Below are positions 1,960 through 45,909 of a DNA stretch of 46,929 nt, piece by piece (the first letter of the stretch is position 1; each line of letters opens with the position of its first letter). A program made the translations under genes and the position numbers. The notes below the pieces were generated by a model. The model was not told the origin of the DNA, ran no database searches, and was given only the letters and a program-made list of their open reading frames with translations. Location of the stretch: the IMG/VR virus record IMGVR_UViG_3300033153_007039, positions 1-46,929 of that record. One strand, 5' to 3'. This DNA is from a virus.

Positions 1960-2130
1960 TAAAACTGATACTTTAACAATTACAGATAGTGTTGAAACTT
2001 ATGGTGCAACATTTTATCCAATTAGTGAAACAGATACTTTGAGTATAAGTGATTCTGTTAGTGCAGCATCTTCTGAACTTCAAGGGCAAACAATCACAGA
2101 AACTTTAACAATTACAGACACTACAACTAT
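1320..2130 (+). repeat. 22-residue (66-bp) coding repeats of fibre stalk
   Basis: About twelve degenerate copies of a unit close to ETDTLSLSDSVSIEGDVSLGIS are encoded in tandem, with a period of 22 residues in the best-conserved middle copies. The alternating hydrophobic/Ser-Thr pattern suggests a beta-solenoid or beta-strand stalk. The same unit is used in the separate gene at 40401-41441. Confidence 0.85.
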
Positions 2131-6088: not shown

Positions 6089-6321
6089 AAAATAAAAGAT
6101 TTGTAAAAATAATAGGATATAAATGTGAAAAATGTGGAGTTAGAAAAAACTTAACAATTCATCATAAAGATAAAAATAAAAAAAATAATATTAGAAGTAA
6201 TTTAAAGTGTTTATGTAGAAAATGCCACGATCAAATTCATGGAATAATCATCAAAAAATCAAAACAACATAAAAAATATCAAAGAGGAACTAAAAAATGG
6301 AAAAAAAGAAAAAAAAAGTAA
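6082..6321 (+). CDS. HNH nuclease (2)
   Basis: This 79-residue protein has CEKCG, LTIHHKDKNKKNN with the HH catalytic pair, and CRKCHDQIHG completing the HNH zinc site. The tail is extremely basic (KKKSKQHKKYQRGTKKWKKRKKK) and presumably holds DNA. It differs from the neighbour at 5879 in the HH signature, so the two are not a recent duplication. Confidence 0.75.
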   Translation: MLKNKRFVKIIGYKCEKCGVRKNLTIHHKDKNKKNNIRSNLKCLCRKCHDQIHGIIIKKSKQHKKYQRGTKKWKKRKKK

Positions 6322-7778: not shown

Positions 7779-7932
7779 AAGATTTATTCCTTATTGTGAT
7801 TATCAACATCATAGGGGAATAATTAAATATCAATTACATCATAGGGGAATAATTAAATATCAATTCTATCCAACTTGTAAAAAAAGAGAATGCAGACATT
7901 TGATAAGACTTTCACTTGTTAATAGATTATAA
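7729..7932 (+). CDS. Small zinc-binding-type protein with internal duplication
   Basis: The protein has 67 residues, and the start is firm (AGGAGGTTAAATG). One Cys (PYCDY) lies before and two Cys plus a His (PTCKKRECRH) after a 10-residue sequence that is duplicated in tandem. The duplication lengthens the loop between the putative metal ligands and is probably recent, because the DNA copies are almost identical. The gene ends 6 bases into the convergent RuvB-like gene. Confidence 0.6.
   Translation: MKPKRVLKYSPMEEGDKRFIPYCDYQHHRGIIKYQLHHRGIIKYQFYPTCKKRECRHLIRLSLVNRL
7807..7866 (+). repeat. 30-bp tandem duplication
   Basis: The units 7807-7836 and 7837-7866 are identical except for the last base. 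They lie in frame inside a zinc-type small gene and add ten residues (HHRGIIKYQL/F). Confidence 0.9.
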
Positions 7933-9006
7933 TTCTTCCAAAACTTCTGAATAATTATTCTCATAACTTTCAGAAACTCCTACATCATTTCCAAAAGATA
8001 GAAAATCAATCTCATCAGGAGAAATACCTTCTACTATTTTATCTGCAATAAAATTCACTAATTCCAAATATCTTTTTCCAAACTTATCTCTTATTTCTGG
8101 ATTTTCTCTTAAATAAGTGTGTGCTAATGTTATTTCATCCATAGTTTTTTCACTATGTTCCTTCTCACTTTCTTTTTGTAATTCTTCATAAGAAACATTT
8201 TTGAAATTGGGTGCTAATTCTCTCCCTCTTGAACTAATCAAAATTACTCCTTTTCTAATTAAGTCAGGTTCTATATCTAATTTAATGTAATTCTCACTTC
8301 GTCGTAAGACTAAACTTAAATTTCTTAAACTTGCTTTCTTTATTGAATTAAGATGTTTTATATATTTTTCTTGTTCATCAGATAATCCAGAATAAATATT
8401 AATCTTCATTAATCTGAACACTTTAGTCAAATTCTTTTCATTTTTCTCTCCATATAATTCAACATATTCAATAATCTTTTTTAAAATTCTAATATTAAGT
8501 GTATAATTTATTAGATAACCTATACACTTATCATTTAATCCAATCTTTTTTAAGATTTTAGTTAAAGTTTCTTCATCAGGCTCATCAAATTCAATTCTCA
8601 TAAATCTATCCATTAATGGTTTGGGTAATCTTTCAGGTTCAGTTGTTGTTCCAATAAATGTAATATTCTTTAAGATATGCCTTTTTCCATCATCATAAAT
8701 TTCATTATCTTGAATAGCAGAATAAATAATTTCACTTACCTTTTCTGGAAGATTATGAATCTCATCAATTAAGATAATAGCATCATTTTTCGCTGAAAGC
8801 ATTAAAGTGATAATTTTCCTTTTACTCATAGCCCCATTTAAATAAATAAAAGGTTTTTTAGTTTCACAAGCAATCATCTTAGATGAATTATGAGAGATTA
8901 TTCCATTTGAAAGTATAAAATTCTTATTATCTTCAACAGATAAATCATACATATCTACTTCTTTAGAAGTAAATCTTATTTTTTCAATTTTAATCCTTTG
9001 TTCCAT
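7927..9006 (-). CDS. RuvB-like AAA+ ATPase, C-terminal half, preceded by split-intein C part
   Basis: The 359-residue frame begins with about 40 residues of an intein C-terminus: VDMYDLSVEDNKNFILSNG then ISHN, followed by Ser as +1 residue. The extein that follows is RuvB-like: Walker B IILIDEIHNLP (DEIH at residues 81-84), sensor 1 FIGTTTEPE, arginine-finger stretch LMDRF. A winged-helix end (SDEQEKYIKHLN...LIRKGVILISSRGRELAP) lines up with the RuvB C-terminal domain. A further 85 residues are extra. RuvB drives Holliday-junction branch migration in bacteria. Walker A lies in the separate gene at 9425-9922, so function requires protein trans-splicing. It is the last gene of the leftward operon and overlaps the HNH gene by 31 bases. 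Confidence 0.8.
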   Translation of the reverse strand: MEQRIKIEKIRFTSKEVDMYDLSVEDNKNFILSNGIISHNSSKMIACETKKPFIYLNGAMSKRKIITLMLSAKNDAIILIDEIHNLPEKVSEIIYSAIQDNEIYDDGKRHILKNITFIGTTTEPERLPKPLMDRFMRIEFDEPDEETLTKILKKIGLNDKCIGYLINYTLNIRILKKIIEYVELYGEKNEKNLTKVFRLMKINIYSGLSDEQEKYIKHLNSIKKASLRNLSLVLRRSENYIKLDIEPDLIRKGVILISSRGRELAPNFKNVSYEELQKESEKEHSEKTMDEITLAHTYLRENPEIRDKFGKRYLELVNFIADKIVEGISPDEIDFLSFGNDVGVSESYENNYSEVLEEL

Positions 9007-9703
9007 GGTTTTCTTTCTTTGTTCCAGTGTTCTTTTCCTTGTAAATTGTTTAAATTTTTAAGATGACATTTTTGAGAACAATAGATTTTCTTTCCTTTAA
9101 TTGCATAAAATTCTTTATGGCATACAGGACAAATCTTTTTCTTACTTTCCCTATATTTTTTCCATTTTTCCTTCATCATTTTACTTTGATTAGTTCTATT
9201 TTGCATATCTCTCTTATGTTGTTTTATATGACAAGATTGACATAAAACCATTAAATTTTCTATTTTGTTGTTAAAAGGATTTTTATCAATATGATGGACA
9301 ATTAAATCAAAATTATCATTTGTTTTTTCTTTCCCACAAATCATACATTTCCATTTAAAATTAGATTTTGCTATTTTTAAATAGTTTTTTCTATTTCCTT
9401 TCTTTGATTTTGGATTTCTTGCTATCATTCTACATATAATAAATAGTCGCTTGTATTTAAATCTTTTGTTTTAATAATTTGTCTTTTATTATCTCTAATA
9501 ATAAACCATTTATGTTCAGGGCTACATTTTAACCAACCTTTTTTAGTATGAATTATACATAGTTGCTTTTTTCCTGCATAACTTAATTGTGCTTTTTTAC
9601 TTTCAATTTTCTTTTTATTAAAATTATATGATAAAACCTCTTTTATTTTCTCTATTGGTTTTAATCCATTTGGAGTTTTAATTAAAGTTCCTTTAGGCAT
9701 ACA
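8887..9703 (-). other. Split intein interrupted by a free-standing HNH gene
   Basis: The intein N part occupies 9428-9703 (92 residues, Cys1 in CMPKGTLIKTPNGLKPIE, block B-like CSPEHKW). The C part is 8887-9006 (40 residues, ending HN before Ser+1). The two parts are in different genes, and between them lies a complete HNH nuclease gene whose ATG overlaps the N-part stop (ATGA). The sizes 92 and 40 are those of natural split inteins. The insertion point is one residue after the Walker A Lys-Thr, a favoured intein site. This is the fractured-gene layout described for some environmental phage genes. Confidence 0.8.
8976..9428 (-). CDS. HNH homing endonuclease inside fractured RuvB gene
   Basis: The protein has 150 residues. 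The HNH site is CMICGKEK...LIVHHIDKNPFNNKIENLMVLCQSCHIKQH at residues about 32-80. A second zinc ribbon (CPVCHKEFYAIKGKKIYCSQKC) follows, and the end is a PWNKG DNA-contact motif near the C-terminus. That is the plan of group I intron or intein-linked homing nucleases. Its start overlaps the stop of the intein N half and its end overlaps the start of the intein C half, so it is translated as a separate protein. It is expected to mobilise the split intein into an intein-free allele. Confidence 0.8.
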   Translation of the reverse strand: MIARNPKSKKGNRKNYLKIAKSNFKWKCMICGKEKTNDNFDLIVHHIDKNPFNNKIENLMVLCQSCHIKQHKRDMQNRTNQSKMMKEKWKKYRESKKKICPVCHKEFYAIKGKKIYCSQKCHLKNLNNLQGKEHWNKERKPWNKGLKLKK

Positions 9704-9922
9704 ATAAGTCTTTCCTGTTCCTGCATAACCACTAAATAACAAATTCCTTCTTTCACCTTTTTTCAATTTCTCTAAAATTAATTTCATAAAAACTTCTTGT
9801 TTTGGAGTAAAAACTACATCAGAGAATTTAGGTTCTTCAATTATCTCTCCAATCTCCTCTTCTTTTTCTTCATTTTCATTAACAAATTGTTTTTTTCCAA
9901 AATAATCTATAATCCATCCCAT
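9425..9922 (-). CDS. RuvB-like AAA+ ATPase, N-terminal half, followed by split-intein N part
   Basis: The protein has 165 residues. Residues 1-73 are extein: a variable acidic start, a PKFSDVVFTPKQEVFMKLI segment as before RuvB P-loops, and Walker A GYAGTGKT at residues 65-72. Cys74 then opens an intein N-domain that runs to the stop. The extein cannot bind and hydrolyse ATP alone, because Walker B and sensor residues are in 7927-9006. The start is ATG 9922, inside the end of the small zinc gene at 9907-10041. Homopolymer error cannot easily explain the split, because both downstream genes have proper starts exactly at the breaks. Confidence 0.8.
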   Translation of the reverse strand: MGWIIDYFGKKQFVNENEEKEEEIGEIIEEPKFSDVVFTPKQEVFMKLILEKLKKGERRNLLFSGYAGTGKTYCMPKGTLIKTPNGLKPIEKIKEVLSYNFNKKKIESKKAQLSYAGKKQLCIIHTKKGWLKCSPEHKWFIIRDNKRQIIKTKDLNTSDYLLYVE

Positions 9923-15254: not shown

Positions 15255-15295
15255 ATTACCGAAAAGTTTAAATAGTAGACTGTTTATATAAAATA
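15255..15295 (+). promoter_or_regulatory. Promoter of the long rightward operon
   Basis: ACCGAAAAGTTTAAATAG (15258-15275) is a strong BRE/TATA with its centre about 26 bases before ATG 15296, so the mRNA should be leaderless. From here genes overlap almost without break to 30598. Confidence 0.6.
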
Positions 15296-15499
15296 ATGGA
15301 TTTAAAAAAACAAATAGTAAAAGTAAAGAAATTACAAGCAATAGGGACAATTAATCCTACTTATTCACTTATTTTACCCAAACGATGGTTAGACACAATG
15401 AATTGGGACAGAAAGACAAAAATTGTTTTAGAATTTTTACCTCATAGAGAAATGATTATTGTATCTAATGAAAAAATTAGTAATATTGAGCAGGTCTGA
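15296..15499 (+). CDS. AbrB-like swapped-hairpin regulator
   Basis: This 67-residue protein has the pattern of AbrB/SpoVT-type transcription factors: an initial strand (QAIGTINPTYSLILPKRWLDTMNW), then a hydrophobic strand pair (KIVLEFLPHREMIIVS). Such proteins form DNA-binding dimers. As the first gene of the operon it may control its own promoter. It overlaps the next gene by 32 bases. Confidence 0.6.
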   Translation: MDLKKQIVKVKKLQAIGTINPTYSLILPKRWLDTMNWDRKTKIVLEFLPHREMIIVSNEKISNIEQV

Positions 15500-15617
15500 T
15501 ATTGAATATGTGCAAACGATTGCAAAGAAAGTAAGTAGCCCACAAGCTAAGAAAGGGAACTTTTCAAAGGGATTAAGACAAATAATTAAGGATCATAAAA
15601 ATGGAAAAAATGACTGA
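15468..15617 (+). CDS. Small basic protein, possible DNA-binding partner
   Basis: The product has 49 residues, with ATG inside the end of the regulator gene. The N-terminal strand (KKLVILSRSDIEYV) and following helices with basic residues (SPQAKKGNFSKGLRQIIKDHK) resemble small ribbon-helix-helix proteins. It overlaps the next gene by 17 bases. Confidence 0.5.
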   Translation: MKKLVILSRSDIEYVQTIAKKVSSPQAKKGNFSKGLRQIIKDHKNGKND

Positions 15618-15756
15618 ATTAGAAATATTAACAGCACTAACCTTAGTTCAAGGATATTTGCTTAAAGAAAATTATGATTTATCAGAATTACTTAATAGAG
15701 TAAAAGCTAATCTTCAAGATAATTATTTTAAAATTTTAAAAAATGGAAGAAAATAA
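15601..15756 (+). CDS. Small helical protein
   Basis: The 51-residue product (TELEILTALTLVQGYLLKENYDLSELLNRVKANLQ) is helical with leucine spacing that suits a coiled coil. It overlaps genes on both sides, so it is translated in series with the regulator pair and the chaperonin. Family unknown. Confidence 0.5.
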   Translation: MEKMTELEILTALTLVQGYLLKENYDLSELLNRVKANLQDNYFKILKNGRK

Positions 15757-17134
15757 ATATGCACACATTCAGGCAGCAGTAAATTTCTGCGATTTAATTA
15801 GAAGCACACTTGGACCTCGTGGGATGAACAAGGCAGTAATAAACAAGGAAACTGTTTTCACAAATGATGGTGCTACTATAATTGATCAAATTAATGTAAA
15901 TGACCCAATAGTTAATCTATTTAAAGAATTAGCAAAAAGTCAAGAGGAACTAATAGGTGATGGGACTTCTACAACAGTTATTCTAAGCGGACAATTACTT
16001 GATAATGCACTCACCTTACTTAATAAAGGGATTCATCCAACTACTATAATTAATGGATATTCTTTGGCAAAAGTGGAATGTATGAAGAAACTTAATGAAT
16101 TTAAAGAAAAAGGTGAAAAAGATAAAATTATTGAAACTGCATTTGGTTCTAAGATTACCCCAGATATAATGAAAATTTTAAAGAATTTAATTAATCAAGT
16201 GAAAGATTTTGAAAAATTAAGGATATACAAATGTGCTGGAGATCCAAAAGACTCAAAACTCTTTTTTGGATATATTTTTGATGGATTTACAATAAATGAA
16301 AGAATGGAAAACGAAATTTCTGGAAAAATTGCAGTATTAGATTATAGAACTAATGTAGAAGCATCTGATATGCACATTAGTCAAGTGGATGAACTTAAAA
16401 AAATAAATGAATATGAAAGAGCTTATAAAAAAGAGATTGTGGACAAATTAGTAGAACAAAAAATAAAATGTCTTTTTTATACTGATACTAACCCTGAATT
16501 TGAAACATATTTGACAGAAAAAGGAATTACAGGAATAGTAGTTTATCAAAGAGATGCTATTGATGGAATTTGTGAAGCCTTAAAAATAAACGCAACTTCT
16601 GACATAAAAAACATTTATTCTGCTGTAGGGCATATAAGATATGAAAAACCAAGAAGTATTTATATTACAGGAAATTCTGAAACACTTATCTTAAAAGGGC
16701 CAACAAAACAAACTACTGATGAAATTGAAAGAGCAGTTCATGATGTTGTTTCATTACTTAAACATGAAATAGATCAAGTGGTAGGTGCAGGTGCAATAGA
16801 AATTGAATTAGCAAAAAGAATAAGAGATTTAGCAGAAAATGTTGGTGGAAAAGAACAATTAGCCATAGAAAAGTTCGCAGAATCTATTGAATCAATTCCT
16901 TTAATAATTGCAGAAAATTGTGGATTAGACGCAATTCAGATTTTAGCAGCCTTAAAAACAATGCACAAAGAAAATCCAAATGTAGGAGTAGATATGGTTA
17001 AGGGAGTTTCTGATGCAAGGGAGAGAGGATTAGTAGAACCAGTTTTAGTAAAAATTCATGCAATTAATTCTGCAACAAATGTAGCAAATTTAATTTTAAA
17101 GACAGATAAAATTCTTATGGGAGAACAAAAATGA
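15743..17134 (+). CDS. Group II chaperonin (thermosome subunit), shortened
   Basis: At 463 residues it is about 80 shorter than cellular thermosome subunits. ATPase motifs are present: STLGPRGMNKA (21-31), NDGATI (41-46), GDGTST (72-77), GAGAIEIELA and NCGLDAIQILAAL. The N-terminal strand region of about 30 residues, parts of the apical domain and the Gly/Met tail are missing or reduced. Thermosomes fold proteins inside a double ring with ATP. A viral copy may fold capsid or fibre proteins, form its own ring or mix with host subunits. It follows the small regulators with overlap. Transfer from a host is likely, followed by trimming. Confidence 0.9.
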   Translation: MEENKYAHIQAAVNFCDLIRSTLGPRGMNKAVINKETVFTNDGATIIDQINVNDPIVNLFKELAKSQEELIGDGTSTTVILSGQLLDNALTLLNKGIHPTTIINGYSLAKVECMKKLNEFKEKGEKDKIIETAFGSKITPDIMKILKNLINQVKDFEKLRIYKCAGDPKDSKLFFGYIFDGFTINERMENEISGKIAVLDYRTNVEASDMHISQVDELKKINEYERAYKKEIVDKLVEQKIKCLFYTDTNPEFETYLTEKGITGIVVYQRDAIDGICEALKINATSDIKNIYSAVGHIRYEKPRSIYITGNSETLILKGPTKQTTDEIERAVHDVVSLLKHEIDQVVGAGAIEIELAKRIRDLAENVGGKEQLAIEKFAESIESIPLIIAENCGLDAIQILAALKTMHKENPNVGVDMVKGVSDARERGLVEPVLVKIHAINSATNVANLILKTDKILMGEQK

Positions 17135-17208: not shown

Positions 17209-17508
17209 ATGAAAGATACAAAATTCAAAAAAGGCCAGAAACCTTGGAATAAAGGAAAAAGATTTTCACAGATTGAAGGAGAGAAACATTGGAATTGGAA
17301 GGGTGGTATTACAAGATATAGACAGATAATTATACGGGAAGGTATAGAATTATCTTGTCAAGAGTGTGGTTCTAAAAGAAAAATCCAAATTCATCATAAA
17401 GATAAAAATAGAAGCAATAATAATCTAAGCAATTTAAGAGTTCTTTGTTCAATTTGTCACGCAAATCTACATAAGAATTGGGAGGGAAGATGGGGAAAAA
17501 AATCCTAA
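17209..17508 (+). CDS. HNH homing endonuclease (4)
   Basis: The 99-residue protein has N-terminal PWNKG and HWNWKGG motifs (DNA-contact NUMOD type), then CQECG, IQIHHKDKNRSNNNLSNLRVLCSICHANLH, a complete HNH site. Its last bases overlap the epimerase-type gene start. It is probably a mobile insertion between the chaperonin and the glycan genes. Confidence 0.8.
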   Translation: MKDTKFKKGQKPWNKGKRFSQIEGEKHWNWKGGITRYRQIIIREGIELSCQECGSKRKIQIHHKDKNRSNNNLSNLRVLCSICHANLHKNWEGRWGKKS

Positions 17509-18434
17509 TTACAGGAATTTCAGGATTTGCTGGAAGTCATTTAGCTGAGTATTGTTTATCTAAGGAATGTGAAGTTCATGGAACTATTAGATGGCGAAGT
17601 GATTTAAAAAATTTAAAAGAAATTCCACAAATACAATTACATGAATGTGATTTAACTGATGCTTATTCTATTAGAGATATAATCAAAGAAGTTAAACCAG
17701 ATTATATTTTTCATTTGGCTGCACAATCTTTTGTAAAAGCGTCTTGGACTAATCCTTCTCAAACACTTACTAATAATATAATAGGAGAACTTAATTTGCT
17801 TGAAGCAGTTAGAAATGCAAATTATAAACCAAGAATTATGATTGCAGGTTCTTCTGAAGAATATGGTCATACTGAGACTGCCTTGAATGAGGATAGCCCC
17901 CTTTTGCCATTGTCTCCCTATGGCGTGTCAAAAGTCGCTCAGGATCTTCTTGCTCAACAATATGAGAGATCATATGGATTAGATATTGTGGTAACACGAG
18001 CATTTAATCATACTGGCCCAAGAAGAGGGGATGTTTTTGTTTGTTCTTCTTTTGCGAAGCAGATTGCAGAAATAGAAAAAGGAAAAGTCCCAGTAATTCA
18101 TGTAGGAAATCTTGATGCAGAAAGAGATTTCACAGATGTAAGAGATATAGTAAAAGCATATTGGCTTGCTTTAGAAAAAGGTGAAAAAGGAGAAGTTTAT
18201 AACATTTGTTCTGAAACAACAATTCCAATAAAAAATATTTTAAGAAAATTATTAATGATGAGTAAATTAAAGATTGAGATAAGACAAGACCCAAAAAGAA
18301 TGCGCCCATCTGATTTAAAAGTTTTGGTAGGAGATTGCACTAAATTCAAAGAAAAAACAGAATGGACACCTTCTATAAAAATTGAACAAACACTTGAAGA
18401 TTTATTAAATTATTGGAGAAATAATGAAAACTGA
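17490..18434 (+). CDS. GDP-4-keto-6-deoxymannose reductase-like NAD(P)-dependent SDR
   Basis: The 314-residue protein has a Rossmann start (GITGISGFAGSHLAEY variant: ILITGISGFAGSHLAE), the active-site SSEEYG and YGVSK pair (Tyr-x-x-x-Lys), RAFNHTGP, NLDAERDFTDVRDIVKAYW and a C-terminal RPSDLKVLVGDCTKFKEKTEW. These phrases together are those of Rmd-type reductases that make GDP-rhamnose, rather than GDP-mannose dehydratase itself. ATG 17490 is chosen, with GGAGGG just before; the TTG at 17478 is less likely. No 4,6-dehydratase is in the window, so the substrate would come from the host. First gene of the glycan cluster. Confidence 0.8.
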   Translation: MGKKILITGISGFAGSHLAEYCLSKECEVHGTIRWRSDLKNLKEIPQIQLHECDLTDAYSIRDIIKEVKPDYIFHLAAQSFVKASWTNPSQTLTNNIIGELNLLEAVRNANYKPRIMIAGSSEEYGHTETALNEDSPLLPLSPYGVSKVAQDLLAQQYERSYGLDIVVTRAFNHTGPRRGDVFVCSSFAKQIAEIEKGKVPVIHVGNLDAERDFTDVRDIVKAYWLALEKGEKGEVYNICSETTIPIKNILRKLLMMSKLKIEIRQDPKRMRPSDLKVLVGDCTKFKEKTEWTPSIKIEQTLEDLLNYWRNNEN

Positions 18435-18555
18435 AAAACAAGTCAAAAGAAAATTAGAAGATTTAAAAAAAGAATGGGTTAAGTCAGAAGTTAATTCTAA
18501 TCAAAGAAAAAAAATAAATAGAGGTGTGGAAATGTTGGAGTGGGTATTACAATGA
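18424..18555 (+). CDS. Small helical protein
   Basis: The 43-residue, charged, helical product (KQVKRKLEDLKKEWVKSEVNSNQRKKINRG) overlaps the reductase gene before it and the glycosyltransferase after it (ATGA). Unknown; similar short helical proteins often sit between phage genes. Confidence 0.45.
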   Translation: MKTEKQVKRKLEDLKKEWVKSEVNSNQRKKINRGVEMLEWVLQ

Positions 18556-19235
18556 AAATAATTATGAGTTATTTACAAGAAGATGAAAAACTTAAAACTT
18601 GTTTGCATTCTCTTAAAAAATATTCTCCTAATGTTGAGATAGTTAAACTTCACTCTGACCCAAAGAAAACTAAATCTTCTGAACACGCTTTTGATACTTA
18701 TTTTGAAGAACATGGCATGGATGATGATTATATGATTTGGCATCCAGACATGATTGCAACTGAAGGATGGTATGAAAAATTAATGGAGTATTATGATTTA
18801 TTTGATGTGATTGGATGTAAATTAGTTTATCCAAATGGATTAATTCAGCATTATGGTGGAGCATTATATCCTGGACAAACTATTGCAGGGCCAGGAGCAG
18901 TTGGTGGACATCCTCATCAGCACTCTATGAATATTGGATTAAATGAACCATTATCTTGTCCTTATGTTACAGGCCCAAGCATGGTTGTTAAAAAAAAGGT
19001 TTGGGAAAAATTAAAAGGATGGGATCATTCCTATTGGTGTTATATAGATGCAGATTTTTGTATTAGAGCATTAAAGGAAGGTTTTACAGTTGGAGTTGTT
19101 CCAGTAACATTAATTCATAGTGAAGGAGAAGATCAATTAAAAAAAAGAACTAAAGAATATAACGCAAAGTTATTAAGTGAGGGCTGTGTAATATTTACAA
19201 GTAAACATATGGATTATTTATCTAAATTCAAATGA
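18552..19235 (+). CDS. Family 2-type glycosyltransferase
   Basis: The 227-residue protein has the GT-A plan: MKIIMSYLQEDEKLKTCLHSL opening, a DDDYMIWHPD acidic motif near residue 62, a Cys/Gly middle, and YWCYIDADFCIRALKEGFTVGVVPVTLIHSEG as acceptor and metal-site region near the end. It lacks signal or membrane segments, so it acts in the cytoplasm. Its place between the sugar reductase and a radical SAM gene suggests it transfers a modified sugar. Confidence 0.75.
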   Translation: MKIIMSYLQEDEKLKTCLHSLKKYSPNVEIVKLHSDPKKTKSSEHAFDTYFEEHGMDDDYMIWHPDMIATEGWYEKLMEYYDLFDVIGCKLVYPNGLIQHYGGALYPGQTIAGPGAVGGHPHQHSMNIGLNEPLSCPYVTGPSMVVKKKVWEKLKGWDHSYWCYIDADFCIRALKEGFTVGVVPVTLIHSEGEDQLKKRTKEYNAKLLSEGCVIFTSKHMDYLSKFK

Positions 19236-20077
19236 AATTACCAAGAAGATATAATTACGCAGAGGCATATCTTACCTTTAGATGTCCACTTAATTGCGAA
19301 TATTGTATTAATGATGATTCTGGAAAACTTGAAAGAAGAAGAAAAGAAATTTCTGGAAAAGAATGGGTTAAAGGATTAAATAGAATCGACTTTGGGAATA
19401 TTCCTCTAACATTAGGTGGTGGAGAACCAACACAACACGCAGATTTTTATGAAATATTAGAAAGATTAAATATGAATAAAGTAGATTTATTAACAAATTT
19501 AGAATTTGATGTAGAGAAATTTTTAGATAAAACAATTCCAGAAAGATTTAGTCAAGAAGAAAACCCTGCTTACAAATCAATAAGAGTTTCTTTTCATCCT
19601 GGACAAATGGACCCAGATGATTTAGTAAGAAAAGTAAAAAGAATCCAAGATGAAGGTTATGCAATAGGAATTTTTGGATTGAATCATCCTTTGAATATTG
19701 AAGATAATATTCAAATGTCTGAATTAGCAAGACAGAATGGAATTTACTTTTTTATTAAAGATTTTTTAGGAGAATATAGAGGACATACCTTTGGTTTTTA
19801 TAAATATCCGAATGCTATAAAGGGTGGAAAAAAAGAAGTATTATGTAAAACTAAAGAACTTTTAATAGACCCTGAAGGAGAGATTTATAGATGTCATAGA
19901 GATTTATATAGAAAAAAACATAAAGTGGGAAGTATTTTAGATCCTAATTTTAAAACAGATAAATTAGATAGATTTAGACCCTGTTTAAATTTTGGAGAAT
20001 GTAATCCTTGTGATGTTAAATTAAAAACTAATAGATTTCTACAAAAAGGAAATTGTCAGGTGGAGATTGTAAAATGA
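19232..20077 (+). CDS. Radical SAM enzyme (1)
   Basis: The 281-residue protein has the CxxxCxxC cluster as CPLNCEYC at residues 18-25 and GGGEPT near 64, the SAM-binding GGE motif. A further Cys group near the end (CHRDLYRKKH, CLNFGECNPC) suits an auxiliary iron-sulfur cluster. These enzymes use 5'-deoxyadenosyl radicals for difficult changes such as epimerisation, dehydration or C-methylation. It overlaps the genes on both sides by 4 bases. Substrate unknown; in this setting it could be a sugar, nucleotide or peptide. Confidence 0.8.
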   Translation: MKLPRRYNYAEAYLTFRCPLNCEYCINDDSGKLERRRKEISGKEWVKGLNRIDFGNIPLTLGGGEPTQHADFYEILERLNMNKVDLLTNLEFDVEKFLDKTIPERFSQEENPAYKSIRVSFHPGQMDPDDLVRKVKRIQDEGYAIGIFGLNHPLNIEDNIQMSELARQNGIYFFIKDFLGEYRGHTFGFYKYPNAIKGGKKEVLCKTKELLIDPEGEIYRCHRDLYRKKHKVGSILDPNFKTDKLDRFRPCLNFGECNPCDVKLKTNRFLQKGNCQVEIVK

Positions 20078-20850
20078 GTTGTGGGAAATGTGGGCATAGA
20101 GCTATACCTCATGATTTAAAAGAATTACCTGAAAATACAAGATTATTGAGTATCTGTTGCACAAGGGGAAAGCCAGAATTAGTTCAAGAGATGTTAAAAT
20201 CTTTTGATGAAACAAAATCTGAAGGAACAGAAATAGTTTTATTTGTTTGGAAAGATGACCCAAAAGTTGAACAATATAAAAAAGCTTTAGAGGGGAGGAA
20301 TGTTCTTTGGGGAGATAAATTATTTATGGGAGATGTCTTGAATTATATTTCAACAGAAGTTTATCCAGATGTAGATTATTATCAAAATATAAATGATGAC
20401 CATTATTATGTTGTAAAGGGTTGGGATAAAATGATGACAGGAGTTCTTGATGATAATAAAGGATGGGGGGTTTCTTATTGTAAAGGAAAAGATAATGCAC
20501 ATAATCCTAATGCAGAAATTGTTTCTGGAAAAATAGTTAGAGCAATAGGGTGGTATGTTTATCCAGGATATAGGCAATTTGGATTAGAACCATATTTTAT
20601 TTCACTTGGAGAAGCTTGTGGATTTTTTCTAATTCCAGAAGTAATTGAACATCGTTCTATTAATGCAGGATTTGGTGCAAAAGATGATATTTATGCTTTT
20701 ATTTATTCTCCAGAAGAAGCAATTAATGCAAGAAAAGCTTACGATGAATGGCAAGAACACAAAGCTGGATGTTTTGAAAAAATTAGATTAGCAATTAGAA
20801 AAGAAATGCAGGAGGCTGTGGGAAAGAAAACTCCTTATATGTTAAAATGA
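20074..20850 (+). CDS. Glycosyltransferase-like protein (GT-A type)
   Basis: The 258-residue protein begins with a CxxC (MSCGKCGHRA), then RLLSICCTRGKPELVQEMLKSF, typical of a GT-A N-terminus, and YYQNINDDHYYVVKGWDKMM with a DxD-like metal motif near residue 110. The region GLEPYFISLGEACGFFLIP may hold the acceptor site. ATGA overlap with the radical SAM gene fixes the start at 20074. Function in glycan assembly is likely; donor unknown. Confidence 0.6.
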   Translation: MSCGKCGHRAIPHDLKELPENTRLLSICCTRGKPELVQEMLKSFDETKSEGTEIVLFVWKDDPKVEQYKKALEGRNVLWGDKLFMGDVLNYISTEVYPDVDYYQNINDDHYYVVKGWDKMMTGVLDDNKGWGVSYCKGKDNAHNPNAEIVSGKIVRAIGWYVYPGYRQFGLEPYFISLGEACGFFLIPEVIEHRSINAGFGAKDDIYAFIYSPEEAINARKAYDEWQEHKAGCFEKIRLAIRKEMQEAVGKKTPYMLK

Positions 20851-21338
20851 AAATAAAAACAACATTTGTAGAAGAATATTGGAAAAATAAATCTAAATTT
20901 AAGATAGATGATTGGACCCCAAAAAAGGAAGACCATATTGTTTTAATTAATCTTATTGAAAAATTTAATCTTAAATCTTTTTTTGAAATTGGAACTTATA
21001 CCGCATTTACTACAGAACTTCTTGCAACTCATCCAAACATAAAGAGGTGGAAATCTATTGATACAAACCCTCATATTTATCATCCTAATATAATTAAAAT
21101 AGATAGTGGAGAATATATTCCAGGAATTAATTGTTTTCCAGAGGGAGAGGATGAACAATATGATTTAATTTTCATTGATGGGGATCATCAAAATGTAAAA
21201 AGAGATACAGAATTAGCATTAAGATTAAAACCAATAGTTATTGCTTGGCATGATTATAAAGAATTATTTGTTCAAAGAGATGTAGATTTATTTAAACCAG
21301 ATAATGTGGAGGCAAATGTAGCATGGAAAAAAGTATAG
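20847..21338 (+). CDS. SAM-dependent methyltransferase-like protein (1)
   Basis: The 163-residue protein has a class I methyltransferase core: FFEIGTYTAFTTELLAT (motif I), then YDLIFIDGDHQNVKRDTELALRLKPIVIAWHDY, characteristic of the Methyltransferase_24 group found in glycan and O-antigen loci. A relative lies at 21726, sharing the IDxxHxDxExDTELALRLKP-WHDY end. Overlaps both neighbours. Confidence 0.75.
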   Translation: MKIKTTFVEEYWKNKSKFKIDDWTPKKEDHIVLINLIEKFNLKSFFEIGTYTAFTTELLATHPNIKRWKSIDTNPHIYHPNIIKIDSGEYIPGINCFPEGEDEQYDLIFIDGDHQNVKRDTELALRLKPIVIAWHDYKELFVQRDVDLFKPDNVEANVAWKKV

Positions 21339-21736
21339 TTTATGCTTATGTTGTGGCAGATTTACTTCATATTGGGCATTTAACTCATTTAGAGAATGCT
21401 AAGGCTCTTGGAGATAAATTAATTGTTGGTGTTTTAACTGATGAAGCAGTAATGGAAAAGAAAAAGAAACCAATTTTACATTTTGAAGAAAGATTTAGAT
21501 TAGTAAAATCTCTTAAATGTGTTGATTGTATAGTGATTCAAACAACATATTCTCCAATTCATAATATTAAAACTTTAAAACCAAATATTTTAATGGAGAG
21601 CGATAGCCATAATGAGCAAGACATAGAAAATGCTAAAAGAGCTATGGAACCTTGGGGTGGAAGGGTTATAGTTACACCATATTATCCTGAACAATCTTCA
21701 ACTAAAATTAAGAAGGAGATTAAAAATGCAGGCTAA
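21323..21736 (+). CDS. Cytidylyltransferase (nucleotidyltransferase, HxGH type)
   Basis: The 137-residue protein is about the length of glycerol-3-phosphate cytidylyltransferase. HIGH at residues 16-19 (LLHIGHLTHLENAK), RF...K in the middle and SSTKIK near the end are the family motifs. It transfers CMP (or another NMP) from NTP to a phosphorylated alcohol or sugar. The next-but-one gene is LicD-like, which uses CDP-activated choline-type or related groups, so the pair may attach a phospho-alcohol to a glycan. The substrate cannot be read from the sequence. Confidence 0.8.
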   Translation: MEKSIVYAYVVADLLHIGHLTHLENAKALGDKLIVGVLTDEAVMEKKKKPILHFEERFRLVKSLKCVDCIVIQTTYSPIHNIKTLKPNILMESDSHNEQDIENAKRAMEPWGGRVIVTPYYPEQSSTKIKKEIKNAG

Positions 21737-22274
21737 AGAATATGTTGATTGGTATAATGAGAAGTTTATACAAAGTTTAAGTAATGGGAATAACCTTTGT
21801 TTTCCTAAAGAGGACCAATTAGTTTTGATTGAACTTATTGAAAAATATGATATAAAATCTGTTTTAGAGTTTGGAACTTTTGAAGGGTGCACAACAAATT
21901 TAATACATTTACATCCAAATATTAAAAGAATAAAAACACTTGATTGGGGAAAACCCTATCCTATTGAACGATATGGTTCTTATTTTAAAAAAGCAAAAAA
22001 TGTTGAATTAGTATTTACCCAAACATCAGATTGGAAACCAAATGGAGAATATGATTTGGTTCTTATTGATGCAGGACATAGAGATTTTGAAGTAGAATAT
22101 GATACTGAACTTGCTTTAAGATTAAAACCTAAAATAATTGTTTGGCATGATTATCCTTTTAATCTTGAAGAAGATGAACGAGGTCATATAGGTGTTAAAT
22201 CAGTTGTTGATAATTTAGCAAAAACTATGGATATTAAATTTGGGGGAAAGAAGATAGCATGGTTGAAGATATGA
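21726..22274 (+). CDS. SAM-dependent methyltransferase-like protein (2)
   Basis: The 182-residue protein is a paralogue of the one at 20847: VLEFGTFEGCTTNLIHLHPNIKRIKTLDWG (motif I and II), YDLVLIDAGHRDFEVEYDTELALRLKPKIIVWHDYPF. It presumably methylates a sugar hydroxyl or a related small group. The two differ in length at the C-terminus. Confidence 0.75.
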   Translation: MQAKEYVDWYNEKFIQSLSNGNNLCFPKEDQLVLIELIEKYDIKSVLEFGTFEGCTTNLIHLHPNIKRIKTLDWGKPYPIERYGSYFKKAKNVELVFTQTSDWKPNGEYDLVLIDAGHRDFEVEYDTELALRLKPKIIVWHDYPFNLEEDERGHIGVKSVVDNLAKTMDIKFGGKKIAWLKI

Positions 22275-22837
22275 AACAAACTATGAAAAATACTTTATTT
22301 AAGTTCGATGATATTTGTAAAGAGTTAGGCATTACATTTTTTTTACTTCAAGGGACTTGTTTAGGATTTTATAGAGATGGTGGATTTATTCCTGGAGATG
22401 GAGATATTGATTTATATGTAAAATGTAGTAAGAAAAAGTTAATAAAATTATTTGAAGAATGTGAAAAGAGGCAAATATATCCAGAGAAAAATTGTTTTTC
22501 TAATGTTTTTGAGAATGCTAAAGGAGAAGAAATAAATAGACATCTTAAAGTTGGAAGTTATTGGATTGATTGTTATTTTAAAATGTTAGACGATAGAAAA
22601 ATGTTTATGATTAAAACCGATAAAGTAGAAGTTTTTGGAAGAACTTTTAATTGCCCTCACCCTGTTGATGCTTACTTAACTTTAGAATTTGGAAATTGGA
22701 AAGTTAAATGTGGACAAAAAAGTAGAGGCAGAGGTTCTCCACTTCCTGAACCTTCAAAAGATTTATCTTGGGAAGAATTATTGGCTGCACCAAAATGGTT
22801 AAGAGATACTAAAAGACATGATAGGGGTAAAATATGA
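22259..22837 (+). CDS. LicD-family phosphotransferase
   Basis: The 192-residue protein has the LicD signature near residues 28-55: LLQGTCLGFYRDGGFIPGDGDIDLYV, close to GT-LG-R-GFIPWDDDID. It belongs to the nucleotidyltransferase-fold enzymes that add phosphocholine or related groups to surface glycans. The second Asp of the usual DDD set is Gly here (GDGDID), but two Asp remain. ATG 22271, in an ATGA overlap with the stop before, is an alternative start. Fits functionally with the cytidylyltransferase at 21323. Confidence 0.8.
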   Translation: MVEDMKQTMKNTLFKFDDICKELGITFFLLQGTCLGFYRDGGFIPGDGDIDLYVKCSKKKLIKLFEECEKRQIYPEKNCFSNVFENAKGEEINRHLKVGSYWIDCYFKMLDDRKMFMIKTDKVEVFGRTFNCPHPVDAYLTLEFGNWKVKCGQKSRGRGSPLPEPSKDLSWEELLAAPKWLRDTKRHDRGKI

Positions 22838-23913
22838 AAAGATTAATGGATGGAACAAAATTACTTTGGCATATGGATAGGGTTAAAGAACACTATGATG
22901 AAGGCAAAAGGATTTCTCCTTTATTGATTAATATTGGGGCAACTAAAAAATGTAATGCTAATTGTATTTATTGTTATGGAGTTTTTCAAGGCAAAGATCA
23001 AAAATCCACAATAGACAGAGAACCATTACTCCATTTATTTTATTCTGCACCAAAATTAGGTGTTAAAGCTATTGAAATAATTGGAGATGGAGAACCAACA
23101 TTAAATCCTCACATCTATGATGCTATGGATATTGGAAAAAAAGAAGGATTAGACATGGCATTTTCTACTAATGGAATTTTACTTGACACTGATGAAAAGA
23201 GAGAAAATGTTTTAAGGAATTGTTCTTGGATGAGATTTAATCTATCCGCAGGAACAAGAGAGGGCTATAAAAAAATTCATAGAGTTGATAAGTTTGAGAA
23301 AGTTGTTGAAAATATAAAAAGAATGGTTGAATTAAAGAAATATCCATATGGATATCCATGTGATGTTGGATTACAAGCAGTTTATGTTCCAGGACTTATG
23401 GACCAAGATATAATTGATGAATCGATTTTAGCAAGAGATTTAGGAGTTGATTATTTATTAATTAAACAATGTTCTCTCCCAGAAAAAGGGGTTGTTGCAG
23501 ACATCTCTTTTGATGTAAATGATTATGATAAACCAGAAATAAAAAGTATTTTAAAAAGATGTGAAAGTTTATCAAATGATAAAACAGATATAGTTGTTAA
23601 ATGGGAATTTATGCAAATAGGAAAAAGAAGGCCATATGATCATTGTGTTGATGCCCCCCTAATTTTTCAGGTTAGTGGAAATGGAAAATGTTATCCTTGT
23701 GGTTATCTTTTTGGAAATGAAGAATATGAATATGGAGATTTAAACACGCAATCACTTCAAGGGATTTTAGAAAGTGAAAAATATTGGGAGATAATAGATA
23801 AAATGAAAAAGTTTGATGTTCATAATGATTGTGAAGGCTGTTGTAGACATGATAAAATAAATGAATTTTTATCTGAATATTTAGATAAACCAAATGGAGT
23901 TAATTTTATATGA
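22834..23913 (+). CDS. Radical SAM enzyme with SPASM-like end (2)
   Basis: The 359-residue protein has CNANCIYC at residues 40-47, GDGEPTLNP near 88-96, and two more Cys groups towards the C-terminus (CYPCGYLFG and CEGCCRHDK) as in SPASM or twitch domains that carry extra iron-sulfur clusters. Such enzymes modify peptides, cofactors or sugars. It overlaps genes on both sides by 4 bases. Distinct from the radical SAM at 19232 in length and cluster layout. Confidence 0.8.
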   Translation: MKRLMDGTKLLWHMDRVKEHYDEGKRISPLLINIGATKKCNANCIYCYGVFQGKDQKSTIDREPLLHLFYSAPKLGVKAIEIIGDGEPTLNPHIYDAMDIGKKEGLDMAFSTNGILLDTDEKRENVLRNCSWMRFNLSAGTREGYKKIHRVDKFEKVVENIKRMVELKKYPYGYPCDVGLQAVYVPGLMDQDIIDESILARDLGVDYLLIKQCSLPEKGVVADISFDVNDYDKPEIKSILKRCESLSNDKTDIVVKWEFMQIGKRRPYDHCVDAPLIFQVSGNGKCYPCGYLFGNEEYEYGDLNTQSLQGILESEKYWEIIDKMKKFDVHNDCEGCCRHDKINEFLSEYLDKPNGVNFI

Positions 23914-24464
23914 TAAAGGATTTAATCTGGAAAAAAGTAATGGGATTTACAGTTACCCAATTTGAAAGAGTTAGTTATCTTATTGATGCAGTTGAAGAAA
24001 TAGTGAAAAATAAAATTGAGGGAGATTTTGTTGAATGTGGAATTAAATTTGGTGGAAGTTGTATGGCTATGGATCTTGCTTTAAAAGAATTAAAAGAAAA
24101 AAGAAAAATTTGGATGTATGATGTTTTTAATAAAGAGTTTGAGGATTGTCCTTCTGAAGAAGAAATAAGGAAATTAATGAAAGGAGTAGACACAGAAATT
24201 GTTGTTGGAAATGTATTAAAAACTATCCCAGAAAAGATGCCAAAGAAAATTGCTTTATTGAGATTAGATACAAATTTCTTTAGTTCTACTTATCACGAAT
24301 TAGTTCATTTATATCCTTTACTTGAAAAAGGTGGAATTTTAATCATCGATGATTATGGACATTGGCCTCAATGCAAAGAAGCAGTTGATAAATATTTAGA
24401 AGAAAATAATATAAAATCTAAATTAAATGTAATTGATTACACTGGAAGATGGCTAAGAAAATAG
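23910..24464 (+). CDS. TylF/MycF-type sugar O-methyltransferase
   Basis: The 184-residue protein shows the macrocin O-methyltransferase pattern: GDFVECGIKFGGSCMAMDLAL (SAM site), WMYDVF, LLRLDTNFFSSTYHELVHLYPLLEKGGILIIDDYGHWPQCKEAVDKYL (metal and catalytic region with the Asp pair). The N-terminal arm is shorter than in TylF. The family methylates hydroxyls of deoxysugars, which suits the GDP-deoxyhexose reductase at the start of the cluster. Confidence 0.8.
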   Translation: MIKDLIWKKVMGFTVTQFERVSYLIDAVEEIVKNKIEGDFVECGIKFGGSCMAMDLALKELKEKRKIWMYDVFNKEFEDCPSEEEIRKLMKGVDTEIVVGNVLKTIPEKMPKKIALLRLDTNFFSSTYHELVHLYPLLEKGGILIIDDYGHWPQCKEAVDKYLEENNIKSKLNVIDYTGRWLRK

Positions 24465-25204
24465 ATAAAGATAAAATAATAAATAAAGATTTAAGAAGGA
24501 GAATAATTACTGAAGGAACTAAACGTAAACATGGGCATTATGGTTCATCTATGAGTTGTGTGGACACAGTTGCTTATCTTTATAGGAAAGTAATGAAAGA
24601 AAATGATATTTTTATTATGAGTAAAGGACATGGCGCACCTGCACTCCATGTAGTTTTAGAAGAAAAAGGGATTATACCCCCTTGGACAATTCACATTGAA
24701 TATGCTGAAAATCAAGGAATTAAAGCTACTGGGGGTTCTCTTGGACATGGTTTATCTATTGCTTTAGGCAGAGCTTATGCTAAAAAATATTTAAAAAAAG
24801 ATGGTGGAAAAGTTTATTGTATGTTGGGAGATGGAGAATTACAAGAAGGGATGATTTGGGAAAGTTTTAATATTGCCAAAAAATTTAAAATTGATAATTT
24901 AATACCTTTAGTTGATTGGAATAAATATCAAGCGATTGATTCACTTGAAGAAGTTATGGAAGAAGATTATGGAACTATAAAAAATAAATTAAATGCTTTT
25001 GGATATAATGTAACAAAAGTAAATGGACATAATAATAGAAGTCTAAGTAAATTAAATAGATTAGAAAAAGGATTAAATGCAGTAGTTTTAGATACAATTA
25101 AAGGATTGGGTGTTCCTGTTTTACATAGAAATCCTACATTTCATGTTTATTATTTTCATGAACATCCAGAAGAGATGAAGGAGGCTTTAGATTATTTAAA
25201 ATGA
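24449..25204 (+). CDS. Transketolase, N-terminal (TPP-binding) subunit
   Basis: The 251-residue protein covers the thiamine diphosphate-binding half: SKGHGAPALH, GGSLGHGLSIALG, GDGELQEGMIWESFNIA..., and VDWNK, the GDG-x(about 28)-N metal motif. Many archaea have transketolase in two genes, so the split is normal. It would transfer two-carbon units between sugars, or act on an activated sugar as in branched-sugar pathways. Overlaps the TylF-type gene by 16 bases. Confidence 0.85.
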   Translation: MAKKIDKDKIINKDLRRRIITEGTKRKHGHYGSSMSCVDTVAYLYRKVMKENDIFIMSKGHGAPALHVVLEEKGIIPPWTIHIEYAENQGIKATGGSLGHGLSIALGRAYAKKYLKKDGGKVYCMLGDGELQEGMIWESFNIAKKFKIDNLIPLVDWNKYQAIDSLEEVMEEDYGTIKNKLNAFGYNVTKVNGHNNRSLSKLNRLEKGLNAVVLDTIKGLGVPVLHRNPTFHVYYFHEHPEEMKEALDYLK

Positions 25205-25284
25205 CAATTTTAGAATTTATAGCATATAAGATATTTAGAATGCCTAAATTTTGTTACGATAATTGGGGGTATTATTATCCATGA
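25201..25284 (+). CDS. 27-residue peptide between transketolase subunits
   Basis: The frame begins in an ATGA with the first subunit and ends in an ATGA with the second (MTILEFIAYKIFRMPKFCYDNWGYYY). Both overlaps suggest translation, if only to pass ribosomes along. The N-terminal half is hydrophobic. No known function. Confidence 0.4.
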   Translation: MTILEFIAYKIFRMPKFCYDNWGYYYP

Positions 25285-25790
25285 GATATAGGTTTGGAAA
25301 ACTATTAGCTGAAATGATTAAGAAAGATCCAAAAATTTATGTTCTTTGTGCAGATATTGGATTTGGAGTTTTTGATACTTTAAAGGCTGAAACACCAGAC
25401 CATTTAATTAATACTGGGATAGCAGAACAGGCTACTATTGGAATGGCAGCAGGAATGGCTATGGAAGGATATAAACCAGTTGTTTATACAATTACCCCTT
25501 TCTTACTTGAAAGACCTTATGAATCAATTAAATTAAATGTAATGCAACAAAAACAAAATGTTAAGTTAGTTAGTTATGGAGATTATCCAGACTTAGGCCC
25601 AACACACGTTACAAGTAATTTAGAACTTCTTTGCGAAGCATTAAAAATTCCATTACTTAAACCAAAATCTATTGATGAAACATTGAGTATGACAAGAGAT
25701 ATGTTTAAACATAAAGATCCAATTTTTATGTATTTAGCAAAGGCACCTAAAGATGAACCAGAAAGAAATATTAAGGATTATTTAAAATGA
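25281..25790 (+). CDS. Transketolase, C-terminal (pyrimidine-binding) subunit, shortened
   Basis: The 169-residue protein carries the second TPP half: VLCADIGFGVFD, LINTGIAEQATIGMAAGMAMEGYKPVVYTITPFLLERPYE (with the catalytic Glu in GIAEQ), GDYPDLGPTH. The usual third, C-terminal regulatory domain of about 120 residues is absent. ATG 25281 is chosen because it overlaps the stop of the small ORF. Confidence 0.8.
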   Translation: MRYRFGKLLAEMIKKDPKIYVLCADIGFGVFDTLKAETPDHLINTGIAEQATIGMAAGMAMEGYKPVVYTITPFLLERPYESIKLNVMQQKQNVKLVSYGDYPDLGPTHVTSNLELLCEALKIPLLKPKSIDETLSMTRDMFKHKDPIFMYLAKAPKDEPERNIKDYLK

Positions 25791-26254
25791 ATAAAAAAAT
25801 ACAAGGCAAAAAGAATAGAGCATCCGGTCAGAGATTTGAACTTAAAGTTAGAAAGGATTTAGAGGGCAAGGGATGGGTTGTTTCTAAATGGATGAATAAT
25901 GTTGAATTTAGCACAACTAATTTTCATGCTGCATTTATAAAATTAGTCCCAGCAAAACATAAATTTAGAGGAAAAGGAATCCCTATGGCTATTGGAACAG
26001 GATTTCCTGATTTTATTGCTTATGCTTTATATGAAGTTCCAAAAAACATAAAAGAATTTGGATTTATTAATGAATATGAATTTGGAGAGGATAATGTTAT
26101 TGGAGTAGAATGCAAATCAAATGGTTATCTTGACAAAGAAGAAAAAGAGAAATGTAGATGGCTCTTAGACAATAATATATTTAGTAAGATATTAATAGCT
26201 AAGAAAGGAAAAAAAAGAGGTGAAATAATTTATGAAGATTATATGGGCGGGTAA
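25787..26254 (+). CDS. PD-(D/E)XK nuclease, Holliday-junction-resolvase-like
   Basis: The 155-residue protein has KKNRASGQRFELKVRKDLEGKGWVVSKW, resembling the Hjc N-terminus, then GFPDFIAY (Asp of the nuclease core) and VIGVECKSNGYLDKEEKEKCRWLL (the ExK). This is the archaeal Hjc/VRR-type nuclease layout. It could resolve branched DNA before packaging, in step with the RuvB-like protein. It is placed oddly among glycan genes but overlaps both neighbours. Confidence 0.75.
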   Translation: MNKKIQGKKNRASGQRFELKVRKDLEGKGWVVSKWMNNVEFSTTNFHAAFIKLVPAKHKFRGKGIPMAIGTGFPDFIAYALYEVPKNIKEFGFINEYEFGEDNVIGVECKSNGYLDKEEKEKCRWLLDNNIFSKILIAKKGKKRGEIIYEDYMGG

Positions 26255-27293
26255 TGTATTTAATCCAACAGGGTTAGCAACTGCAAATAGAGAAATAGTT
26301 AAGGCTTTATTAAAATTAGGGACAGAAATTCAATGCACAGATATTTGGCATGATGGTTTTGAATTTAATAAGGGATTAAAGGGTTTGAATAATCCTATAA
26401 ATCCAAATCCTAAAACTACAAAAGTAACAACAATCTTTGCAGACTATCCTCAATTTTGGAGAGAGGGACATGGAAAATTAGTTGGATATTTTTTACATGA
26501 AGGAACAAGATTAATTCCAGGATGGAATAATTTAATTAATAGAGTTGAAAAATTAATTGTTTGTTCAGAAGCAACAAGAAATTTATTTAAATGGAATGAT
26601 GTAGTGATTCCTATTGAAGTTGTGCCTTATGGAACAAATCCAGAAATTTATAAGCCTGGAGAAGATCCAACTGGAACATTTGTATTTCTTTCTGTTAATT
26701 CCTGGACAGGAAAAGAAGGAGATAGAAAAGGAACAGATTTATTGATTAAAGCTTTTGATGAAGAATTTAAAGATGAAGATGTAAGATTAGTTTTAAAGAT
26801 TGGAACTTTTTGGGAGAAAGGAATAAATTATCAACAAGCAATTCAAAATATCTTAGGACATATAAATGATAAAATAATAGTTAATGGGAAATATGTTACA
26901 GAAGATGAATTAGCAGAACATTATTATAAAAAAGCAAATTGCTTTGTAGCCCCAACTCGTGGAGAAGCATTTGGATTAACTATCATAAATGCTATGGCTT
27001 GTGGATTGCCAGTAATTGTTACAAAAGATGTGAACTCAGGACATATGGATTTTTGTAAAGGAAAAGATTCTGTTCTTTGGGTAGATGCCCCTGAAGTAAT
27101 ACAAGGAGATAGAAGATTTTATGCTGAAGGAAATATGTTAGCTGAACCAGATTTAGAAAGCCTAAAAAAACAAATGAGATTTGCTTATGAAAATAAAGAT
27201 TTAAGAGAAAAAGCATTAATTGTTTCAGAAGATATAAGAAAGAATTGGACTTGGACTCGAACAGCAGAAAAATTATTAGAGGTTTTGAAATGA
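26232..27293 (+). CDS. GT4 family glycosyltransferase (1)
   Basis: The 353-residue GT-B enzyme has MKIIWAGNVFNPTGLATANREIVKAL at the start, VPYGTNPEIYKPGE linking the two domains, and a C-terminal domain with NSWTGKEGDRKGTDLLIKAF and PTRGEAFGLTIINAMACGLPVIVT, the E-x7-E donor-binding motif. Retaining transfer from a nucleotide sugar is expected in the cytoplasm. A second GT4 lies at 27972. Confidence 0.85.
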   Translation: MKIIWAGNVFNPTGLATANREIVKALLKLGTEIQCTDIWHDGFEFNKGLKGLNNPINPNPKTTKVTTIFADYPQFWREGHGKLVGYFLHEGTRLIPGWNNLINRVEKLIVCSEATRNLFKWNDVVIPIEVVPYGTNPEIYKPGEDPTGTFVFLSVNSWTGKEGDRKGTDLLIKAFDEEFKDEDVRLVLKIGTFWEKGINYQQAIQNILGHINDKIIVNGKYVTEDELAEHYYKKANCFVAPTRGEAFGLTIINAMACGLPVIVTKDVNSGHMDFCKGKDSVLWVDAPEVIQGDRRFYAEGNMLAEPDLESLKKQMRFAYENKDLREKALIVSEDIRKNWTWTRTAEKLLEVLK

Positions 27294-45885: not shown

Positions 45886-45909
45886 TTCCATTTTCTCAAA
45901 TGAGAATCT
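45796..45909 (+). repeat. 114-bp exact direct repeat, copy 2
   Basis: Identical to 1-114. It ends at TGAGAATCT, after which TAATGAGAATCT repeats nine of the last bases, making a short tandem at the divergence point. The inverted repeat TTCTCA-AA-TGAGAA lies at 45893-45906. Confidence 0.95.

Follow-up and report, generated by a model that had tools for sequence, protein, structure and literature searches.

A trimmed group II chaperonin subunit encoded by a group of probable archaeal tailed viruses

Introduction

The viral record IMGVR_UViG_3300033153_007039, a stretch of 46,929 nucleotides referred to here in its whole length as the window, contains an open reading frame that was originally predicted to encode a trimmed thermosome subunit carried by the virus. 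Such a gene raises the questions of whether it belongs to the virus or is a piece of host DNA, whether its shortened product could still work as a chaperonin, and what it might fold.

Group II chaperonins of archaeal tailed viruses are already in print, and the window protein is a trimmed variant. The part consulted of one report gives a thermosome in 18 of 18 genomes of clade 1 of the marine group II archaeal viruses, grouping with the chaperonins of marine group II hosts (Nishimura et al. 2017, PMC5332604), and the part consulted of another gives several group II chaperonin sequences among predicted archaeal viruses (PMC8276007); judged by these sources, the original remark that few archaeal virus groups are reported to have chaperonins is fair. 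The main text of a survey of haloarchaeal tailed viruses mentions neither chaperonin nor thermosome (PMC8651126). A description of the trimmed clade was not found in the open literature, which is a weak absence, a virioplankton chaperonin survey lying outside the search. GroEL-like chaperonins encoded by viruses are described, in the excerpts used here, for phage EL, whose gp146 has the endolysin gp188 as proposed client and forms rings that split with ATP (PMC7185714), and for AR9 (PMC9598537). Unlike these two, the window protein is of group II and has its own lid.

Identity of the chaperonin gene

The chaperonin gene occupied positions 15743–17134 (+), started with ATG and encoded 463 aa in an uninterrupted frame. 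The protein matched PF00118 over residues 17–460 (E 1.5e-95, 321.2 bits, curated cut-off 34.3), the only match to this family in the 46,929-base record. Against the NCBIfam thermosome subfamily TIGR02339 it scored 301.8 bits, below the cut-off of 671.1, and it is thus a relative outside the curated subfamily; in the GroEL test (group I, NCBIfam TIGR02348) it reached 70.2 bits versus a cut-off of 582.1. In the PDB sequence comparison (best 60 of 164 matches), the nearest solved relatives were an ancestral group II chaperonin and the thermosome of Thermoplasma. The bacterial group III chaperonin 5x9v, absent from those best 60 matches, was alike in overall fold (Z 35.8, 449 aligned residues, rmsd 3.0) with only 21% identity; the trees described below held no group III rows. 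On the evidence of PF00118, the alignment, the model and the structure comparison, the gene encodes a trimmed subunit of a group II chaperonin.

Viral ownership and distribution

A viral scan with a mixed alignment, in which 80 of 99 viral loci were kept, gave 15 contigs from 10 metagenome accessions with copies 45–87% identical to the window protein and identically trimmed. The proteins of loci L018 and L083 are identical and not independent. The terminase large subunit of the window (29198–30598, +), a virus hallmark common to the clade, had a homologue in all 15 contigs (47–90% identity), and the HK97-type major capsid protein (33639–34607, +) in 14 of them (55–89%), the single miss being a fragment of 21.5 kb; the window also has a portal protein (30769–32412, −). 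The next virus locus tested, L022, with a chaperonin 33% identical, had neither a terminase nor a capsid protein of the window type. Two extra members (G031 and G036) were found among the capsid and terminase relatives, where 16 of 46 records had a PF00118 match. The clade totals 18 members including the window, the 17 others coming from 11 metagenome accessions. Carriage by the virus, as originally proposed, is borne out by these contigs.

Terminase kin were counted at ≥ 47% identity, which omits 12 of the 50 terminase matches. The chaperonin was present in 12 of 12 contigs, among the 38 so counted, that reached more than 12.6 kb upstream of the terminase. It was absent from 21 of the 38, none of which extended beyond 12.5 kb on the relevant side; as the gene lies up to 15.1 kb away in members, these absences are uninformative. 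PF00118 was missing from the capsid relatives at greater distance, G038 (43%) and G039 (37%), so the wider lineage does not carry the chaperonin throughout. Within the virus group itself, the gene is an apparent core gene and not a stray host fragment.

Two terminase frames (L171 in contig G007 and L173 in G006) were 753–754 aa long versus the usual length of about 470, and their last part resumed after a gap; an intein is probable in both.

Extent of the trimming

Clade proteins had a median length of 471 residues (range 463–480, n = 16) versus 549 (range 529–563, n = 80) in cells, in agreement with the predicted trimmed thermosome-type subunit. The N tail (residues before His8) had a median of 7 residues in the 16 clade members and 28 in the 80 cellular thermosomes, and the C tail (residues after Asp455) 10 and 28, respectively. 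A GGM/GGF C-terminal tail was present in 0 of 16 clade members versus 48 of 80 cellular proteins. The core from His8 to Asp455 had a median of 451 residues versus 492 in the same two sets, about 41 fewer, spread over several loops: stretches of 6 and 13 residues are missing after residues 125 and 152, respectively, the protrusion is 4 residues shorter, the hairpin near residues 291–312 is reduced, and a 3-residue loop is lost. The reduction had been ascribed to the N-terminal, apical and C-terminal parts. This was correct for both tails (about 21 residues shorter at the N and 18 at the C terminus) and only partly so for the apical part, as the protrusion keeps 34 of 38 residues; the bulk of the loss lies instead in the two tails, the stretch near residue 152 and the hairpin.

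Alignments to solved chains started at about chain residue 14–30, and the missing N residues mostly precede that point; the removed residues are therefore tails, outside the folded core. A longer N terminus hidden by a missed start was rejected, since candidate starts in 15 of 15 clade loci lay only at −8 to +2 of the first residue of the window protein, versus a start at −17 or further upstream in 80 of 80 cellular loci. A short N tail was also found in another virus lineage, distant in the tree (9 rows, 11 residues, GGM in 0 of 9).

ATPase site, fold and lid

The ATPase motifs were said to remain in full, and every residue checked was intact: the P-loop LGPRGM (residues 23–28; 15809–15826), Asp42 of NDG (15866–15868), the D-loop GDGT with Asp73 (residues 72–75; 15956–15967), Lys137 (16151–16153), Asp334 of the ERAxxD motif, here ERAVHD (16742–16744), and Gly348 and Gly350, all on the plus strand. 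Asp42, Asp73, Lys137 and Asp334 were invariant in the 75 chaperonins of the structure alignment, from which L053, L035, L147 and L158 were left out, and the catalytic residues were present in 15 of 15 aligned clade members (the window and 14 others). Following the thermosome literature, Asp42 presumably acts as a catalytic Asp and Lys137 in nucleotide sensing; Asp334 aligned with Asp386, the catalytic Asp of Mm-cpn. Since the catalytic residues are invariant, the trimmed chaperonin is apparently working and should still act as an ATPase. In other virus thermosomes, 7 of 10 sampled (rows L022–L066) had YDGTTS or FDGTTS in place of GDGTTT at the D-loop, while cells keep GDGTT.

The AlphaFold model of the window protein had a mean pLDDT of 89.9 and a pTM of 0.83, the weak parts being residues 206–210 in the protrusion (pLDDT < 50) and both ends. 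Full-length matches to Mm-cpn, thermosomes and TRiC were obtained with Foldseek and VIA-align; for closed Mm-cpn (9cpk), 463 of 463 residues were aligned (Z 38.6, rmsd 3.6). The apical protrusion, the built-in lid (residues 203–238; 16349–16456, +), was 4 residues shorter than in cells and contained a helix at residues 215–238 in the model. The window protein thus shares with archaeal thermosomes and Mm-cpn the full subunit fold, the ATPase site and the helical lid protrusion, and differs from them in being about 80 residues shorter, without N tail and GGM tail.

Phylogeny, selection and domain divergence

Removing virus and cell rows that exceeded 80% identity to a retained row left 113 of 160 rows for the tree, which also omits the partial L084. 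In this tree (16 clade, 63 cellular and 34 other virus rows), the clade members grouped together with SH-aLRT 100 on a stem of 2.07, and a careful 62-row tree agreed (9 clade rows together, support 100/100, stem 2.45). Both trees split the window clade at full support from all sampled cells and other viruses; its stem is long, and neither tree fixed its position among the archaea. The other virus thermosomes of the 113-row tree fell beside Thermoplasmatota (29 rows, 9 of them the second lineage with a short N tail, far from the window clade), with Woesearchaeota (3 rows), with Pacearchaeota (one row) and on one long branch of unsure place. Because they occupy several places in the tree, archaeal viruses seem to have acquired group II chaperonins several times. 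The marine group II viruses (PMC5332604) are alike in that a group II chaperonin is common to a whole clade of archaeal tailed viruses; marine-type sequences, matched by tree placement and not by accession, fell beside Thermoplasmatota, with the window clade apart.

The dN/dS ratio was 0.10 between the window and L008 and 0.20 between the window and L009, both pairs having a dS near 1; seven pairs were compared, of which three more had dS > 1.2 and one an undefined dS. These values indicate strong purifying selection on the chaperonin. Mean pairwise identity, with domain borders set by us, was 0.614 in the clade versus 0.606 in cells for the equatorial domain, 0.471 versus 0.582 for the apical domain and 0.396 versus 0.514 for the protrusion. 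By this measure, apical divergence in the clade outpaces that in cells, which is not so for the equatorial domain. The quicker apical change fits an adaptation to virus clients; alternatively, it could reflect relaxed constraint on a narrow client set.

Gene neighbourhood and promoter

The chaperonin gene is flanked by an AbrB-like regulator on one side and a variable cassette of sugar genes on the other. The regulator is AbrB/MazE-like, 67 aa (15296–15499, +; PF04014 E 0.016, under the cut-off), and blastp found a homologue ahead of the chaperonin gene in 12 of 15 clade loci. It is preceded by an archaeal-type promoter motif, CGAAA (BRE)-AG-TTTAAATA (TATA), at 15260–15274 (+), and its ATG follows the first base of the TATA box by exactly 29 nt, which indicates a leaderless start. 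Across the window and 14 clade loci, an ATG stood at exactly 29 nt in 13 of 24 BRE/TATA sites (≤ 1 mismatch), and no other distance from 12 to 60 nt accounted for more than one site; the motif was picked from the upstream regions of the AbrB genes, and several of the 13 sites precede other genes, also on the other strand. Additionally, a 51-aa ORF read by eye (15601–15756, +) overlaps the chaperonin start by 14 nt, and translational coupling is possible.

The cassette extends downstream to the terminase (17478–29201, +) and includes a 4,6-dehydratase, glycosyltransferases, radical SAM proteins, methyltransferases, a split transketolase and LicD. Homologues of cassette genes were present within the next nine ORFs after the chaperonin in 15 of 15 loci, directly or past one or two small ORFs, with a content that varies between viruses of the clade. 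In the three loci whose stretch reaches the terminase (L015, L020 and L021), the cassette ends in two glycosyltransferases followed by the terminase, as in the window. The region looks like one transcription unit, running from the leaderless AbrB-like regulator through the chaperonin and sugar cassette to the packaging genes.

Within the cassette, the transketolase is split into N and C parts in adjoining genes (24449–25790). A 106-nt repeat, 71% identical, is located at 6124–6229 in a small ORF and at 17356–17461 in the HNH ORF that immediately follows the chaperonin, a hint that HNH genes may be mobile.

Host

The best evidence on the host is the BRE/TATA box with a leaderless start 29 nt on, because of which the host is probably archaeal. 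Shine–Dalgarno sequences with ≥ 5 matching bases were found in 11 of 53 genes versus about 1.6 expected, which gives no verdict on the host domain. Searching genomes with only the window protein as query gave no cellular relative; in a second genome scan, the best 80 of 570 relatives were all archaeal by name and none was closer than 34% identity. A capsid profile gave no convincing provirus, with matches in 0 of 30 genomes at first and, in six archaeal phyla outside Asgard, in 0 of 392, 0 of 398, 1 of 371, 1 of 233, 0 of 235 and 0 of 151 genomes, all without a positive control. Both matches were weak (70 and 38 bits), and the first was rejected as a provirus, being a distant HK97-type capsid gene in a different kind of contig according to its surrounding ORFs. 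One accession of the relatives, 3300035698, corresponds to Ace Lake, Antarctica, a cold and partly anoxic lake (PMC8542988); heat is therefore not the reason for a thermosome there.

Proposed function and alternative explanations

We consider it probable, if only just, that the virus has a group II chaperonin dedicated to its own use, encoded by a vertically inherited core gene of unclassified archaeal tailed viruses, and that the product forms a homo-oligomeric lidded cage for late proteins. The sequences themselves show the identity, the trimming, the conserved ATPase site, the kept lid, the purifying selection, the conserved place and the archaeal-type promoter. The subunits would form a homo-oligomeric double ring, closed by the built-in lid upon ATP hydrolysis, and the clients would be virus late proteins such as capsid, portal, tail or cassette enzymes. 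The neighbours of the gene are sugar enzymes, not capsid genes, so the clients could be sugar enzymes or something else. Repeats of 22 residues rich in TDTLSLTDS are shared, at about 44% identity, by two putative fibre genes in the window (1330–2130 and 40558–41240), and nothing ties these genes to the chaperonin.

In cellular rings, the N tail and the GGM C tail point towards the central chamber, and from such structures their loss might give a roomier cage. Phage T4 gp31, a co-chaperonin that serves as a lid for host GroEL and enlarges the folding cage for the capsid protein, offers an analogy as a virus solution for a larger cage; it differs in being a lid and not a ring subunit. More tentatively, and with some doubt, the clade may represent its own subfamily of group II chaperonins, self-standing and without tails, whose evolution was coupled to that of a single group of archaeal tailed viruses, the tail loss in two far-apart virus lineages being an adaptation that opens the cage for oversized clients and the apical domain being re-tuned.

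On the other hand, the trimmed subunit might join host thermosome rings and re-tune the hybrid rings for virus proteins. In favour of this, many archaea have hetero-oligomeric thermosomes, conservation within the clade is highest in the equatorial domain, and the fold agrees with that of cellular subunits from end to end; however, the best identity to sampled cellular subunits of about 34% (best 80 of 570), together with the long stem in both trees, makes a match of interfaces unlikely, and the ATPase site and lid are complete, as an autonomous ring needs. Hybrid rings are therefore regarded as unlikely. It is likewise improbable that a host gene was captured to help the infected cell with stress or folding in general, and not for specific virus clients. 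Such an auxiliary gene would agree with a thermosome relative and with relatives originating in at least one lake that is cold and partly anoxic (3300035698), where folding help is possibly limiting, but a recent capture would be patchy and close to host sequence. The gene instead forms an ancient separate clade, is present in every terminase-kin contig with enough sequence, adjoins the virus cassette and packaging genes, and changes faster in its apical domain.

Degeneration into a non-cycling holdase or scaffold could be read from the loss of many loops and both tails, and is very improbable given that the catalytic residues are all kept through deep divergence, with dN/dS of about 0.1–0.2 in pairs with dS about 1. 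A host gene fragment joined to the virus by assembly, named in the original prediction as what would overturn it, might explain the below-normal length in a window that is a single contig. This possibility is rejected, as 15 more contigs carry the shortened gene with like neighbours and a window-type terminase, and cellular homologues come no closer than 34% in the best 80 of 570 relatives.

The protein keeps every moving part of a chaperonin with about 80 fewer residues and so offers a natural test of the purpose of the disordered tails and loops of thermosomes. It also places a folding machine among the apparent core genes of these archaeal viruses, as opposed to a passing auxiliary role. 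The trimmed chaperonin is also a concrete target for the question of what virus-encoded chaperonins fold, and its gene a marker for finding further viruses of the group.

Other features of the window

A RuvB-like AAA helicase extends over three overlapping ORFs (7927–9922, −), comprising the Walker part with an intein N half, a middle ORF of 150 aa bearing HNH, and the intein C half with the remaining RuvB. A split intein with its own endonuclease ORF is probable. An identical repeat of 114 nt is located at 1–114 and 45796–45909, followed by unrelated ORFs (163–1959 and 45911 to the end), which points to a circular genome of about 45.8 kb that can continue in two alternative ways, as either a population variant or a switchable tail region.
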